The notes beneath the pieces are model-generated. The model saw only the letters and a program-made list of their open reading frames with translations. It was not told the origin of the DNA and ran no database searches. The position numbers were made by a program, and so were the translations under genes. 36,202 nt of DNA from Thermoprotei archaeon (GTDB lineage Archaea; Thermoproteota; Thermoprotei; Gearchaeales; Gearchaeaceae), in contig JAFMCU010000012.1 in NCBI GenBank assembly GCA_017857595.1, forward strand, positions 1 through 36,202, written 5' to 3'. Shown piece by piece: positions 219 through 16,001 of the stretch (within the stretch, counting starts at the first letter, position 1; each line of letters opens with the position of its first letter).

Positions 219-1403
219 ATGCAAATGGTGTTATTTAATAGTATAAATATAGTAATATACCAGCTATTACCACCTTCGCAAACAAACGATTTCTATTCAT
301 TTTTATTATCTTTGTTTTATTTTCTAATATTCATAATGTTTTTTGTGAGCATGTTGTTTCCTGGATTACAGCTTAGTCTGTTTACAACTTTTTCATTAAG
401 AAGAATAGGTGATAAAATAACAATCCTTGATGAGCTTGATCTTAAGAGCAAGAAAACTTTAGCTGAACAATTAAAAAAATTTGGAGCTGACGGGGAAAAA
501 TTAAGTGAACATGTAAGAGAATTAACAGAATTTTTCGAAATTAGTCCTGTAGATAGAGATCCAGCAGGGATTTTAAATAGATTAGAATATATTTTAGACT
601 TGACAAGATACAGATTTCGTTCTTTATTAAAACTATATGCCCCAAAGGTGGATGAAAATGCTCTTTCAACTTTAGAAGATACAGCTAGTATTGCACAAGT
701 TATTCATTTGATAAACAGAATTGCAAAACATTATTATAACATGGCAAAGAAATTCAAGAATTATTATATTGCTCAACAGGTTGAATTTATACTTCCATTC
801 TTAATAGATATGGCAAAAAATTATTTCAGAGCTTTACCTGCAACAACTTTAGAGGTTCCAATAGGTGATGGAATTGGTCCTATGGTAATAGCGCGTATGT
901 ATAAAGAGTTTGGAGTGAACGAAACAAAAGAATTGGGTAATGAAATGGTTGTGGGTGAGGCTGAGTTTCAAAATAGAAAGTTGCTTCTTATGAAAGCTTC
1001 AGGTCCGGCAGGCAGAGTAGGGAAACCTGGCGCGGCCGTAAAACAATTAGTTAAATCTTTAGAAGGTAAAGTAAATCTGATAGTTACGATAGATGCGGCT
1101 CTAAAATTAGAAGGTGAAGAGACAGGCGAAATCGCGCAAGGTGTGGGAGCGGCAATAGGTGACCCAGGTCCTGAAAAGTACAAAATAGAAGAAAGTGCAC
1201 TAGAATATAGGATTCCATTGGTAGCAATTATAATTAAACAAGGATTTAATGATGCAATTTCTCCCATGATAAAGACCATCGCTGATAAGGTGGATGATGT
1301 TGTAAATAGAGTCAAAAATCTTGTTCTAGAAACCGTTCCCGAAGGCGGAATAGCTTTAATAGTTGGGATAGGTAATACATTAGGAATAGGTAATGCATCA
1401 TGA
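219..1403 (+). CDS. DUF1512 family membrane-anchored protein
   Basis: A 394-residue protein with an N-terminal membrane region (about residues 25-52, very rich in Phe, Leu and Ile) followed by a soluble domain. I recognise it as DUF1512, a roughly 370-residue archaeal family of unknown function. The C-terminal half has several Gly-rich conserved stretches: GDGIGPMVIARMY near 218-230, ASGPAGRVGKPGAAV near 262-276 and a GxGNxxGxGN tail. These could form a nucleotide- or phosphate-binding site, but that is inference. The next gene starts inside its stop codon (ATGA), so the two are probably co-translated. A second in-frame ATG lies at 225. The family call is from memory of the sequence pattern. 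Confidence 0.8.
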   Translation: MQMVLFNSINIVIYQLLPPSQTNDFYSFLLSLFYFLIFIMFFVSMLFPGLQLSLFTTFSLRRIGDKITILDELDLKSKKTLAEQLKKFGADGEKLSEHVRELTEFFEISPVDRDPAGILNRLEYILDLTRYRFRSLLKLYAPKVDENALSTLEDTASIAQVIHLINRIAKHYYNMAKKFKNYYIAQQVEFILPFLIDMAKNYFRALPATTLEVPIGDGIGPMVIARMYKEFGVNETKELGNEMVVGEAEFQNRKLLLMKASGPAGRVGKPGAAVKQLVKSLEGKVNLIVTIDAALKLEGEETGEIAQGVGAAIGDPGPEKYKIEESALEYRIPLVAIIIKQGFNDAISPMIKTIADKVDDVVNRVKNLVLETVPEGGIALIVGIGNTLGIGNAS

Positions 1404-1609
1404 GTGAACGCATATCTGTATTTTTTGAGCAAGCTTTAAATATAAAACCTATTTCTCAACTAGAATGCATTCAATGTAAGCATAAACTAGAAAGGCCCTA
1501 TAAAGAGAAAGAATATGTAAATAAAGCAGTAGATGATAAATGTCCTAAATGTCAAAGCCCAATGTATGTAAAGGCGATTTACGTTTATCCTCAACCTAAA
1601 CAATTCTAA
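1400..1609 (+). CDS. small zinc-ribbon protein
   Basis: A 69-residue protein with two CxxC knuckles (Cys23/Cys26 and Cys48/Cys51), which should bind one zinc ion as a zinc ribbon. It has no membrane segment, and the ends are basic and polar. The start overlaps the DUF1512 stop as ATGA, the usual sign of translational coupling, so it probably works with that protein. The specific family and function are not recognised. Zinc ribbons of this size often serve in translation or transcription complexes, but nothing here decides that. Confidence 0.8.
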   Translation: MSERISVFFEQALNIKPISQLECIQCKHKLERPYKEKEYVNKAVDDKCPKCQSPMYVKAIYVYPQPKQF

Positions 1610-1610
1610 T

Positions 1611-2303
1611 ATTGAATCAGAAATAAAATTAAGGAAAGAATTAAAATCTTTTTATGAAAATTATGCAGAAGATTTTAGCTATACTAGAATAAGACCTTGG
1701 AGAGAAGTAGTTTATTATTATAAACTTTTTAAAGGGACTCAAGTTGTTTGTGATCTAGGTTGTGGAAATGGGAGGCATACAAAAGAATTATTCAAATTTT
1801 GCACGATTGTATTAGGAATTGACTTTTCCTTTAATCTTTTAAAAATAGCAAAATTAAAAAATTTAAGTAATTATCCATTATTCTTTCCAATTGTAGCTGA
1901 TGCTTTGAAATTGCCTATAAAAGATCAATTATTAGATGGCATAATTTCTGTTGCTGTCTTTCATCATATTCCGAATGAACATAATAGAATCGATTTTATC
2001 AAAGAATGTAAAAGAACACTCAAACGTAATGGAATTTTGATATTAACTGTCTGGAGTATTGTAAATATTAAAAATTTAATCCATTCTATAATACAAACAT
2101 TAAAATATTATAGAAGAATGTTTTATGAATTTGGAGACGCATATGTTTCTTGGGCTGGTAAATACAATAGATATTATCACTTTTTTTCAAAAAAAGAATT
2201 AAAAAATCTGTTTCTCAAAGCTGGTTTAAATAAATTTGTAATCATGCAATTTGGAACTTTTCCTAATAAGAAAAATTTTCTTTTACTTGCAATTAAAAGC
2301 TAA
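1611..2303 (+). CDS. Trm9-like SAM-dependent methyltransferase with a non-canonical start codon
   Basis: The open frame runs from just after the preceding stop (TAA 1607-1609) to 2303 and encodes about 230 residues of an intact class I methyltransferase. Numbered from ATT 1611, motif I is DLGCGNGR at 48-55, followed by GIDFS, the acidic ADALKLP motif and the AVFHHIP strand-4 motif. An RIRPW motif precedes motif I. This order resembles the Trm9/ALKBH8 tRNA-wobble-uridine methyltransferase group. The frame is closed by TAA at 1569 and holds no ATG, GTG or TTG before TTG 1905, which would delete the SAM site. Initiation is therefore probably at ATT 1611 or ATA 1623, or by +1 frameshift from the zinc-ribbon gene. 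A sequencing error is less likely but possible. It is the third gene of the DUF1512 operon. Confidence 0.82.
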   Translation: MESEIKLRKELKSFYENYAEDFSYTRIRPWREVVYYYKLFKGTQVVCDLGCGNGRHTKELFKFCTIVLGIDFSFNLLKIAKLKNLSNYPLFFPIVADALKLPIKDQLLDGIISVAVFHHIPNEHNRIDFIKECKRTLKRNGILILTVWSIVNIKNLIHSIIQTLKYYRRMFYEFGDAYVSWAGKYNRYYHFFSKKELKNLFLKAGLNKFVIMQFGTFPNKKNFLLLAIKS

Positions 2304-2335
2304 TTTGTTCTCTTACTTTACATTCCTTTTTCTTT

Positions 2336-3532
2336 TTATACAGTAAGACTTTCTCTTTCTGATATTTCTTTTACAATTTTTAATCTCTCTTCGATGAATT
2401 TCATGTTTATTAGTGTGAAGACAATAGTAACTAAGGAGATTAAGAAAGCTATATCATAGGATAAAAGAAGACCGAATTTATCTGCGATAAATCCATCTAA
2501 AACCGGTGCTATCGCAGCGCCTGACCATCTAATTAAGTTATAAGCAGCTGAGGATATTGACCTTGAATATGGTGATATAGAGATTGCATTAGACGTTAGT
2601 ATTGAATTATTTAAACCGCATGAAATTCCTGATAGTATAATCAAAAATGGTCGTACTAAGCTATTTGACATAGATAGTGATACTAAAATTATTGCGAACG
2701 AGGCTAGAGATGTTAAAAAAACTTTGATATTGGAAAACTTTTTAGTCATTAAATTAAAAATTACTACGGAGAAAAAAGCTACTAAAATTCCCCAATAGAA
2801 ATATATGGTGCCCAAAGTGAATGTGGATAAATCGGCTATTGTAAGAGGTGAATATGCTAAAATAGTGAAGAATCCAAAATTATAGCCAAGTGCAATTAAC
2901 GCGTTCAATTTAACGCCTCTATCTTTTAATGCCTTAAATACATCAGAAGGATTCTTTTTTACTTCTTTTATAGGAGGTTCTTTTATCATACTAATAGTAA
3001 GGATTAAACCTATTGTCATTAAAGTAGCAGTACCAAAGAATGGATACCTCCAACTAAAACTACCCAATATACCACCAAGCAAAGGCCCAGATGAAATACC
3101 GAGACCTAATGCAGCCTCATATAATGTTATTGATCTAATTATGTTTCCTTTAGACGAAAGACCAACAATTATGCTTAAAGCTGTTGTTGTAAATAGTGCA
3201 TTGCCCAATCCCCAAAATCCCCTGTAAATTGCAAATATAGGAATATTTGGAGAGAGCCCTGATAATGTTGAAAAAATAACCACGGTTGACAACCCAAAAA
3301 TTAGAGTTCTTCTATTACCTATCGTCGTGGATAACCACCCAGCAATGAGCATAGCGATTGCCATCACTGCAATATAACTTGTAAAGAGCCATTCAACATC
3401 AAAAGCTGATGCACCCATTTCTTTAGCTATCAACGGTAATAGCGGATCAACAACACCTATACCCATGAATGCAACAAAGGTAGCAAAAGCTACCACAATT
3501 GCTGATTTTTCAAACAAAGGTTCTTTTTTCAT
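2336..3532 (-). CDS. major facilitator superfamily transporter (DHA1-like)
   Basis: A 398-residue, very hydrophobic protein with about 12 predicted membrane helices in two halves joined by a charged cytoplasmic loop (roughly residues 184-210, Lys/Glu rich). The loop between helices 2 and 3 carries the MFS motif A variant GWLSTTIGNRRTL, and helix 1 has the GVVDPLLPLIA pattern typical of drug:proton antiporter-like MFS proteins. The substrate cannot be told from sequence. It is transcribed divergently from the DinB-like gene; on the minus strand a TATA-like AGCTTATATAA lies about 30-40 nt upstream of its ATG. It is monocistronic. Confidence 0.85.
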   Translation of the reverse strand: MKKEPLFEKSAIVVAFATFVAFMGIGVVDPLLPLIAKEMGASAFDVEWLFTSYIAVMAIAMLIAGWLSTTIGNRRTLIFGLSTVVIFSTLSGLSPNIPIFAIYRGFWGLGNALFTTTALSIIVGLSSKGNIIRSITLYEAALGLGISSGPLLGGILGSFSWRYPFFGTATLMTIGLILTISMIKEPPIKEVKKNPSDVFKALKDRGVKLNALIALGYNFGFFTILAYSPLTIADLSTFTLGTIYFYWGILVAFFSVVIFNLMTKKFSNIKVFLTSLASFAIILVSLSMSNSLVRPFLIILSGISCGLNNSILTSNAISISPYSRSISSAAYNLIRWSGAAIAPVLDGFIADKFGLLLSYDIAFLISLVTIVFTLINMKFIEERLKIVKEISERESLTV

Positions 3533-14171: not shown

Positions 14172-14636
14172 ATGACATCGTTAAAAGAGGGAGATTTGGC
14201 TCCTGATTTTAAAGCTGTAAATTCTGAAGGGAAAGAAGTTTCATTAAGTGAACTAGTAAAGTCAAACAAATATGTCGTTCTTTATTTTTATCCTAAGGAT
14301 TTTACATCAGGATGTACTAAAGAAGCCTGTAGTTTTAGGGATAACTTTGAATCAATTAGGAAGTTTGGTGCGCAGGTTGTTGGAATAAGCTTAGATGATC
14401 CTAAAACACATGCAGAATTTGCTAAAGAGTATAATCTTAATTTTATGCTAATTTCAGATTTAGATGGAAAGATAAGTGAGAAATACGGAGTTTTAAGACA
14501 AATGGGTGGTAGAAAGTTTGCAGCTAGAGTAACTTTTGTCATTGATTCATCAGGTAAAATTATAAAAATATTTAAAAACGTCAAGGCAGATACGCATGGA
14601 CAAGAAATTTACGAGTTCTTATCAAGCCTAAAATAA
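14172..14636 (+). CDS. bcp: peroxiredoxin, Bcp/PrxQ type
   Basis: A 154-residue thiol peroxidase that reduces hydrogen peroxide and alkyl hydroperoxides. The motif FTSGCTKEACSFRD gives the peroxidatic Cys48 and, five residues on, the resolving Cys53, so it is an atypical 2-Cys PrxQ. PxxFxxxCT is fully kept and the length is typical. Its gene is 8 nt before the next coding sequence, so the two are probably co-transcribed. Confidence 0.95.
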   Translation: MTSLKEGDLAPDFKAVNSEGKEVSLSELVKSNKYVVLYFYPKDFTSGCTKEACSFRDNFESIRKFGAQVVGISLDDPKTHAEFAKEYNLNFMLISDLDGKISEKYGVLRQMGGRKFAARVTFVIDSSGKIIKIFKNVKADTHGQEIYEFLSSLK

Positions 14637-14644
14637 TTAAAGAG

Positions 14645-15151
14645 ATGGATGAAAATAATATAAATAAACTTCTAAAGACTCTGAATGATATAATTTTACA
14701 ATATAGAAGCTTGATCAACGAACTTAATTCTAAAAACATTCAATCATTTATTTTTAATGATTCTTATCATGATTTGGAATATATAGTAAAAAGAATACAA
14801 TCAGAAACTAAAGTAATTCAGAAATCCAAATTGGAAATTAATAAGAAGCTTTTATCCAAAGAATTTCAATTTCTTAAACAAAATTATGGTATAAGTGAAG
14901 ATGAGCTGTTGCCTGAGAAAAATAAGTTTAGGAATTATGAAGATTTTGCAGAATATTTAAACAAAAAAGTTTATAGAGCTTATTCATGGGATTCATTTCT
15001 ATTTCCTTTCTCTGAATATTATAAATCAAAAGAAAAATTAGAAAAACTAATCTATGATTTAAAAGAAAAACTAAAGATGATCAATTTCTACCTCAATTCT
15101 TATAATAAAAAAATAGTGTATGATGAAGATTCTTTGAATATAACTTCCTAA
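14645..15151 (+). CDS. hypothetical coiled-coil protein
   Basis: A 168-residue charged protein without Cys, signal peptide or membrane helix. Residues about 1-75 and 125-160 are long amphipathic helices rich in Lys, Glu and Leu and are likely coiled coils. The central part has an aromatic cluster (YRAYSWDSFLFPFSEYY, about 113-129). I do not recognise a family. It follows bcp by 8 nt, suggesting co-expression in the same oxidative-stress or redox unit, but no function can be assigned. Confidence 0.65.
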   Translation: MDENNINKLLKTLNDIILQYRSLINELNSKNIQSFIFNDSYHDLEYIVKRIQSETKVIQKSKLEINKKLLSKEFQFLKQNYGISEDELLPEKNKFRNYEDFAEYLNKKVYRAYSWDSFLFPFSEYYKSKEKLEKLIYDLKEKLKMINFYLNSYNKKIVYDEDSLNITS

Positions 15152-15173: not shown

Positions 15174-15187
15174 AAAGCTTAAATATA
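15174..15187 (+). promoter_or_regulatory. BRE/TATA promoter of the structured RNA gene
   Basis: AAAAGCTTAAATAT is a textbook archaeal BRE plus TATA element. Its TATA part (about 15178-15187) is centred 25-27 nt before 15208, exactly where the outer RNA stem begins. It drives the plus strand and lies downstream of the stop codon of the preceding gene. Confidence 0.7.
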
Positions 15188-15207
15188 TTTAAATAAAACT
15201 TATATTT

Positions 15208-15359
15208 GCTAGACGCAAAGAAAACCTGCACGATACAAAGTTGTATCTGCTGGGTGCTGGTGTGAAGAACCCTGCGAGGGAGGCCGCAGGGTATGCCTCC
15301 CCTTCACACCAACTTCTAGCAGATACAGCTTTTGTCGTGCGGGCTTAAATGCGTCTAGC
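15208..15359 (+). ncRNA. unrecognised structured non-coding RNA: long rod-like hairpin with alternative or pseudoknotted tip
   Basis: This 152-nt segment is about 53% G+C in a strongly AT-rich setting. Stems read directly: P1 15208-15217 with 15350-15359 (10 bp); a 3-bp helix 15218-15220 with 15344-15346; P2 15225-15233 with 15335-15343 (9 bp); P2b 15234-15240 with 15329-15334 (6 bp, one bulged C); P3 15242-15251 with 15318-15327 (10 bp); P4 15259-15267 with 15302-15310 (9 bp). At the tip, P5 (15269-15276 with 15285-15292) competes or pseudoknots with P6 (15278-15284 with 15295-15301). Several pairs are G-U only if the plus strand is transcribed, which with the promoter fixes the strand. It lacks RNase P GAGGAAAGUC, SRP, C/D and H/ACA signatures. 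The function is unknown. Confidence 0.8.
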
Positions 15360-16001
15360 TTAATAAAAATTTTCTCTACATGAATATGTAATTTTAAAAT
15401 ATTCTTCAACTGTAACCCTTTTAATTTTCATTTTATCTACATTTATGATGTAAATATAATCTAATTTAGCATTTCTTAGCTCTTCAATTTCTATTGGTGA
15501 TGCCTTATAATAAAGATCTAATACTTTCTTAATATTTGAAAGTTCTTCATAAGTTCTTTCCTCAGGCTTTTTAAGTATCATTTCAGGCAATTGTAAAATA
15601 TGAAAAGGTGGACATGCCAATGAAAAATATCTTGTAAATTTACAATATCTTGCAATTTTACTTACTTCTCTTGCAAATCTATATGTAACAGGATCTCCTG
15701 AATATTCAGGAGGCACAAATCCAGTTTCAACTTCTATCAATTCAGAATAATTTTGATTGTAAACTATTAAGTCAGCGATAAGATTACCAACGTCTTTTTC
15801 TAACTCTATATTTTTACCCTGTTTTATAAACTCTAATGCTAAAACTAATTCCATCATTGTATGATTTGATTTGATATATTGTCTTAGGTAAAGTTGAACA
15901 ACCTTATCAATAATTTGCTTGAAAATTTGTCTTTTATCATCATCAAGTTCATAGGAATTTTTTAAATAAAATTCTTCCACCTCTAGCAAAAATTTATTCA
16001 T
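15360..16001 (-). CDS. hypothetical protein with PD-(D/E)XK-nuclease-like motif
   Basis: A 213-residue soluble protein. The segment ADLIVYNQNYSELIEVETG has Asp77, Glu90 and Glu92 spaced as D-x12-E-x-E after a helix containing Glu51 and Glu57. This resembles the PD-(D/E)XK core with the usual Lys replaced by Glu, as in BamHI-like active sites. It could also be an inactive or unrelated alpha/beta protein; the assignment rests on motif spacing only. The C-terminal half is helical with several Cys residues. The gene converges on the structured RNA and its stop codon begins at the base immediately after the outer RNA stem, so read-through transcription would be antisense to that RNA. Confidence 0.65.
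   Translation of the reverse strand: MNKFLLEVEEFYLKNSYELDDDKRQIFKQIIDKVVQLYLRQYIKSNHTMMELVLALEFIKQGKNIELEKDVGNLIADLIVYNQNYSELIEVETGFVPPEYSGDPVTYRFAREVSKIARYCKFTRYFSLACPPFHILQLPEMILKKPEERTYEELSNIKKVLDLYYKASPIEIEELRNAKLDYIYIINVDKMKIKRVTVEEYFKITYSCRENFY

Follow-up and report, generated by a model that had tools for sequence, protein, structure and literature searches.

To our knowledge, new classes of RNA with a dedicated protein partner are rare, and very few are known in archaea beyond SRP RNA, RNase P RNA and the modification guides. The OLE RNA of bacteria has a dedicated protein partner, and type III toxin-antitoxin systems combine an RNA antitoxin with a nuclease toxin. We know of no link to a structured RNA gene for XisH, SfsA, NucS/EndoMS, Bax1 or Can2/Cdn1, members of the PD-(D/E)XK superfamily.

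The locus described here lies within a window of 36,202 nucleotides (the whole stretch of archaeal DNA that was analysed) and comprises the gene of a rod-shaped RNA and a convergent gene whose product was modelled as a PD-(D/E)XK-fold protein. Like the archaeal SRP RNA (RF01857) and RNase P RNA (RF00373), which form ribonucleoproteins, the rod is single-copy, GC-rich and highly structured. It resembles ornate bacterial RNAs such as OLE (PMC12286853) in being a structured RNA of unclear function; however, the ornate bacterial RNAs are large, whereas the window RNA is archaeal and much smaller, shows no Rfam similarity and has a partner of a different fold. The position of an RNA gene beside a nuclease-like gene recalls type III toxin-antitoxin systems, but the window system has no tandem repeats, its RNA and protein are encoded on opposite strands, the fold is PD-(D/E)XK by the model and not that of ToxN, and the partner is a single-copy gene conserved across the phylum. 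With the PD-(D/E)XK proteins named above the partner shares conserved acidic residues and, as judged from the model, the fold; unlike them it forms a family of its own, with E-x-E where most members have E-x-K. Literature searches of open-access papers did not find a description of such an RNA.

A conserved rod-shaped RNA gene in the window

The window contains a real, evolutionarily conserved rod-shaped RNA gene, as confirmed by folding and by comparison with relatives. The features of the locus are as follows.

about 15174..15188, plus strand: predicted BRE/TATA-like promoter element, AAAGCTTAAATATAT
15208..15359, plus strand: rod-like structured non-coding RNA, 152 nt
15208..15217, plus strand: outer (basal) helix, 5' strand GCUAGACGCA, pairing with 15350-15359 in the folds
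15218..15224, plus strand: basal asymmetric internal loop, 5' side AAGAAAA, in the register of the RRGY loop of related RNAs
15270..15301, plus strand: apical element, mutually exclusive or pseudoknotted helices CCCUGCG/CGCAGGG and GGGAGGC/GCCUCCC, invariant in two species
15341..15349, plus strand: basal internal loop, conserved 3' side GGGCUUAAA (GGCUUARA in related RNAs)
15350..15359, plus strand: outer helix, 3' strand UGCGUCUAGC, from the folds and the orthologue comparison
15360..16001, minus strand: convergent partner gene, protein of 213 aa with a predicted PD-(D/E)XK fold (model with pLDDT 92.8, Foldseek)

Folded alone, the plus strand of 15208-15359 forms one rod of 58 pairs with -92.2 kcal/mol. 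Together with its flanks the rod reaches -93.6 kcal/mol, as compared to -44.7 +/- 3.9 kcal/mol in 200 dinucleotide shuffles (z = -12.7), and in 156 kb of its own genome the next-best 170-nt fold is weaker by 25 kcal/mol. Its GC content is 53.3%, versus 30.5% for the window, so that the nearly fully paired, GC-rich rod described in a first-pass annotation of the sequence is borne out. The same annotation had argued from G-U pairs that the plus strand is the RNA; the plus-strand fold is indeed more stable than that of the minus strand, both in the window (-92.2 vs -87.6 kcal/mol) and in the orthologue described below (-96.6 vs -80.8 kcal/mol). It had also placed a BRE/TATA element 25-27 nt before the stem, which agrees with the predicted promoter about 25 nt ahead of where the stem starts; an A/T-rich box occurs at a similar distance upstream of the orthologue, and likewise before most related RNAs. 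Its description of the RNA gene as isolated has to be abandoned, as the rod ends at 15359 and touches the stop codon of the convergent gene, which starts at 15360; the coding region is not overlapped.

The tip of the rod is more than a plain hairpin, since it contains competing or pseudoknotted helices. The helices 15270-15276/15285-15291 and 15278-15284/15295-15301 exclude each other when nested, and together they form a loop-bulge pseudoknot; the energies of the alternatives lie within 1.4 kcal/mol in the window and within 5.4 kcal/mol in the orthologue. Because of the short linker the full pseudoknot would be sterically tight, and a partial pseudoknot or a switch is therefore equally possible.

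Comparison with known RNA families

None of the Rfam 15 covariance models, the search of which had been recommended in the first-pass annotation, matched the rod above its gathering threshold, and permissive thresholds gave only chance matches of miRNA precursors to the long hairpin. A divergent SRP or RNase P RNA was rejected, because both genes are found elsewhere in the genome above gathering scores (C60:77839-78154 and C60:373-676, respectively); the rod matches neither RF01857 nor RF00373, in keeping with the earlier statement that it has no features of either RNA. Excision and circularisation via a bulge-helix-bulge motif were considered because the topology in the window looked right, but the relatives carry a single 4x3 internal loop. 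In that motif a 4-bp helix separates two 3-nt bulges, one on each strand, whereas the basal loop of the window RNA yields at best 4 nt / 3 bp / 3 nt. The rod has a 10-bp perfect terminal repeat at its ends; a MITE or other repeat was discarded, since the genome contains only one copy.

A pattern search with the tip sequence in the whole collection retrieved only one related contig, that of crenarchaeote SCGC AAA261-N23; six bacterial matches to the pattern were dismissed, as they gave no significant model match. Model R1, built for the window type, found nothing beyond the genus when run on 81 genomes from the class and 398 from the phylum.

Conservation within the genus

The only other available genome of the genus, that of crenarchaeote SCGC AAA261-N23, contains a syntenic orthologue of the rod between the same genes. 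When the two sequences are aligned, each of the 40 pairs that they have in common is preserved, and 11 of these have changed on both sides, including two pairs of the outer helix. The 3' side of the basal loop, GGGCUUAAA, is identical. The stems have diverged between the two species, while tip and basal loop show little or no change, which is the signature of a functional RNA. Synteny, structure and compensatory changes thus define the two RNAs as a genus-level orthologue set. These changes, like the strong covariation in the wider set of relatives (see below), are the opposite of the uncompensated stem changes that would have refuted the first-pass annotation, and together with the negative Rfam search they support its proposal of a new structured RNA.

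G002, which represents the other genus of this family, retains the flanking genes; it has no RNA at the site, and the partner protein was not found anywhere in its genome. A genome of the same order (G003) has a hairpin upstream of the gene (L034, about 1105-1255) with a perfect 18-bp terminal inverted repeat, GCTGACTGAAACCTAAGA, and a different internal layout. Upstream of the rod, the window encodes a 168-aa protein without any family match (14645-15151, plus strand); among 41 relatives examined, clear homologues of it occur only in the two further genomes of its family.

The product of the convergent gene

The 213-aa protein belongs to no family in Pfam, NCBIfam or PADLOC. Its gene is present in 180 of the 398 Thermoproteota genomes, nearly always once. 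The leading Foldseek matches of the model are mostly PD-(D/E)XK proteins, with probabilities up to 1.00, but since the best PDB match has an E-value of only 1.8e-3, they support an assignment of fold and not of function. The model resembles XisH, SfsA, NucS/EndoMS, Bax1 and Can2/Cdn1 and has the alpha-beta-beta-beta-alpha core together with similarity to solved PD-(D/E)XK members; as modelled, the protein is of the PD-(D/E)XK fold. The residues E51, E68, D77, E90 and E92 are invariant in 13 homologues. Of the D...E-x-K signature, D77 and E90-x-E92 are thus retained and the lysine of E-x-K is missing; its role could be taken over by K115, an invariant residue of the next helix.

A class of related RNAs in other families

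The commonest type of RNA found beside the gene, termed class 1, has members in f3, f15, f20, f24, f31, f33, f41, f53 and f58 (f1, f2 and so on are working labels of families; most of the genomes are draft assemblies). These RNAs combine a helix at the base with a 4x3 internal loop (RRGY / ARA), and their 3' strand carries GGCUU, which is invariant in 16 of 16 aligned RNAs. Covariation is pronounced: 21 sequences contain 44 double-change cells, as compared to 11.4 in shuffles, all seven pairs of the outer helix change on both sides, and f24 alone accounts for 18 double-change pairs in six sequences. Complementarity between the terminal loop and a 3' bulge marks one or two arms in many members, and loop and bulge covary (CGGCU:GGCCG, CAGC:GCUG, CGGU:ACCG); in 22 hand-picked arms this complementarity exceeded that of all 2000 partner shuffles. 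The predicted RNA strand gives the more stable fold in all 22 class-1-type RNAs, among them that of the window. Two-armed RNAs of about 220-230 nt occur in L179, L188, L144, L195 (7734-7956, plus strand) and L196 (7050-7269, minus strand), with the loop-bulge pseudoknot repeated in each arm.

Two covariance models were used to search for class-1 RNAs. Model R2, the build of which included the window RNA, was run on 398 genomes blind to the protein; it matched 30 of them, once each, and in 28 the match lay within about 0.5 kb of the gene. Among the 15 matched genomes outside the build set, 13 showed the linkage, six of these belonging to f15, a family absent from training. Model R3, from the build of which the window RNA and its orthologue were left out, matched 36 genomes, and the protein gene is present in 35 of them. 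At linked class-1 loci RNA and gene occupy opposite strands, with the RNA either upstream or downstream; it is therefore not an mRNA leader. R3 also recovered unlinked copies, of which the f36 genomes have two or three each and f15-g77, f53 and others have one, which makes it most likely that the RNA works in trans; no common neighbour was seen in the neighbourhoods of unlinked copies that were read. Two of the copies in f36 genomes are inverted and 10-17 kb apart, away from the nuclease gene (L193:4338-4474, minus strand, and 14549-14684, plus strand; L194:7575-7713, minus strand). The unlinked RNA of G251 (L199 / L176:1501-1637, plus strand) adjoins an open reading frame similar to the C-terminal portion of Cas6. 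No repeat array was seen nearby, and the connection with CRISPR that this neighbour had suggested was rejected, as five unlinked neighbourhoods had neither repeat arrays nor a common neighbour.

The window RNA shares with class 1 the partner gene, which it adjoins on the opposite strand, the rod shape and GGGCUUAAA in the right place. Its match to R2 holds by construction, as it was part of the build. R3 does not recover the window RNA or its orthologue: there was no match with filters on, and turning them off gave 2 bits in the wrong register. At the basal 4x3 loop the 3' strand GGGCUUAAA is in register, while the 5' strand AAGAAAACC departs, with an A-C mismatch. In view of the R3 result we assign the window RNA to the same system as a structured RNA linked to the gene, and treat its homology to class 1 as no more than probable, on the strength of the partner gene, the architecture and the GGCUUARA motif.

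Structured RNAs beside the gene across Thermoproteota

In other families, too, outstanding hairpins appeared beside the gene when the surrounding DNA was folded. A uniform folding re-scan covered 85 loci around the gene, a best segment with a robust z below -5 being regarded as outstanding. Such segments were found in 34 of the 85 loci, representing 17 families, and all 34 lay within 450 nt of the gene; about 28% per locus would be expected by chance. At least 17 archaeal families thus have a strongly structured RNA next to the gene. It occurs without a nearby outstanding segment in many lineages (f5, f9, f17, f25, f32), and as the RNA is sometimes away from the gene as well, the link is frequent and not absolute. 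A gathering-threshold scan with Rfam of the RNAs beside the gene at 40 loci found no known family except one tRNA, and a permissive search of eight loci gave nothing beyond chance miRNA-precursor matches.

The RNAs differ in shape. In f10, f52 and f66 an RNA of another shape is encoded downstream of the gene on the same strand; that of f52 is a different branched RNA (about 2220-2449, plus strand, in L097 and L098; about 1180-1409, minus strand, in L102). Branched RNAs in f23, f40, f27 and f30 are downstream of and convergent to the gene, the same arrangement as in the window, and may represent a further type. Those at L092:1249-1459 (plus strand), L093:2193-2402 (minus strand), L099:1298-1478 (plus strand) and L155:457-628 (plus strand), from f23, f40 and f27, are 170-215 nt long, lie just downstream of the gene, have the base CGGRAMA.../...CUCCGAAA and match no Rfam family. 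The f23 RNAs have a mean column identity of 90% and seven double-change pairs.

Proposed role and alternative explanations

We prefer, at roughly an even chance, the explanation that the locus encodes a structured non-coding RNA which acts in trans, and that this RNA and the predicted PD-(D/E)XK-fold protein function as a ribonucleoprotein. The RNA would have a promoter of its own and be transcribed from the opposite strand to that of the protein gene; its long helix, with the basal internal loop and the apical pseudoknot, would be the platform bound by the protein, and the RNA would either position or restrain the nuclease activity of the protein. The proposal builds on the RNA-like conserved rod, the fold of the protein model, the recurrent adjacency in at least 17 families and the lack of both partners in G002. 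From these we infer binding; the RNA might guide, scaffold or inhibit the protein.

Rather unlikely, in our estimation, is a trans-acting RNA with a function of its own, for example in RNA processing or protein targeting, with the adjacency being old gene order that was kept. RNAs unlinked in several genomes and the many protein genes without an RNA beside them would fit such a case, but adjacency in 17 families persists despite changing position and orientation (divergent upstream, convergent downstream), which inertia alone would not predict, and no other common neighbour was seen in the neighbourhoods read. Regulation of the nuclease gene in cis, be it by antisense overlap, transcriptional interference or a shared divergent promoter, appears improbable: interference needs no long compensating rod with conserved tip and loops, the RNA is also found far from the gene, and it leaves the coding region free, even though the opposite strand and close spacing at class-1 loci, and the window RNA abutting the stop codon of the convergent gene, would suit it.

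We regard it as very improbable that the inverted repeat acts as DNA or as a terminator, whether as a cruciform, as a site bound by a nuclease or, between the convergent genes, as a bidirectional terminator. The window rod does lie between convergent genes, and a PD-(D/E)XK protein could bind DNA; however, G-U pairs stabilise the RNA strand in all 22 class-1-type RNAs, while G-T would not pair in DNA, most relatives are located between divergent promoters, where a terminator would be pointless, and no terminator pattern was found. A miniature transposable element with terminal inverted repeats, as suggested by the terminal repeat of the rod, is largely refuted by the single copy in this genome and in nearly every genome with an RNA match, and by the syntenic orthologue with its compensatory changes.

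Implications

The adjacency of RNA and gene points to an RNA-protein partnership that is undescribed. Extending the preferred ribonucleoprotein reading to the phylum, we propose more tentatively that a PD-(D/E)XK-fold protein and a fast-evolving RNA, encoded side by side, could form an ancient, phylum-wide archaeal ribonucleoprotein, undescribed to date, which would rank like the housekeeping ribonucleoproteins; as part of the same tentative proposal, the RNA would be a rod, two-armed or branched depending on the lineage. The recurrence of an RNA beside one conserved protein of predicted nuclease fold across Thermoproteota suggests a directly testable role for both, and the covariance models supply many members to choose from.
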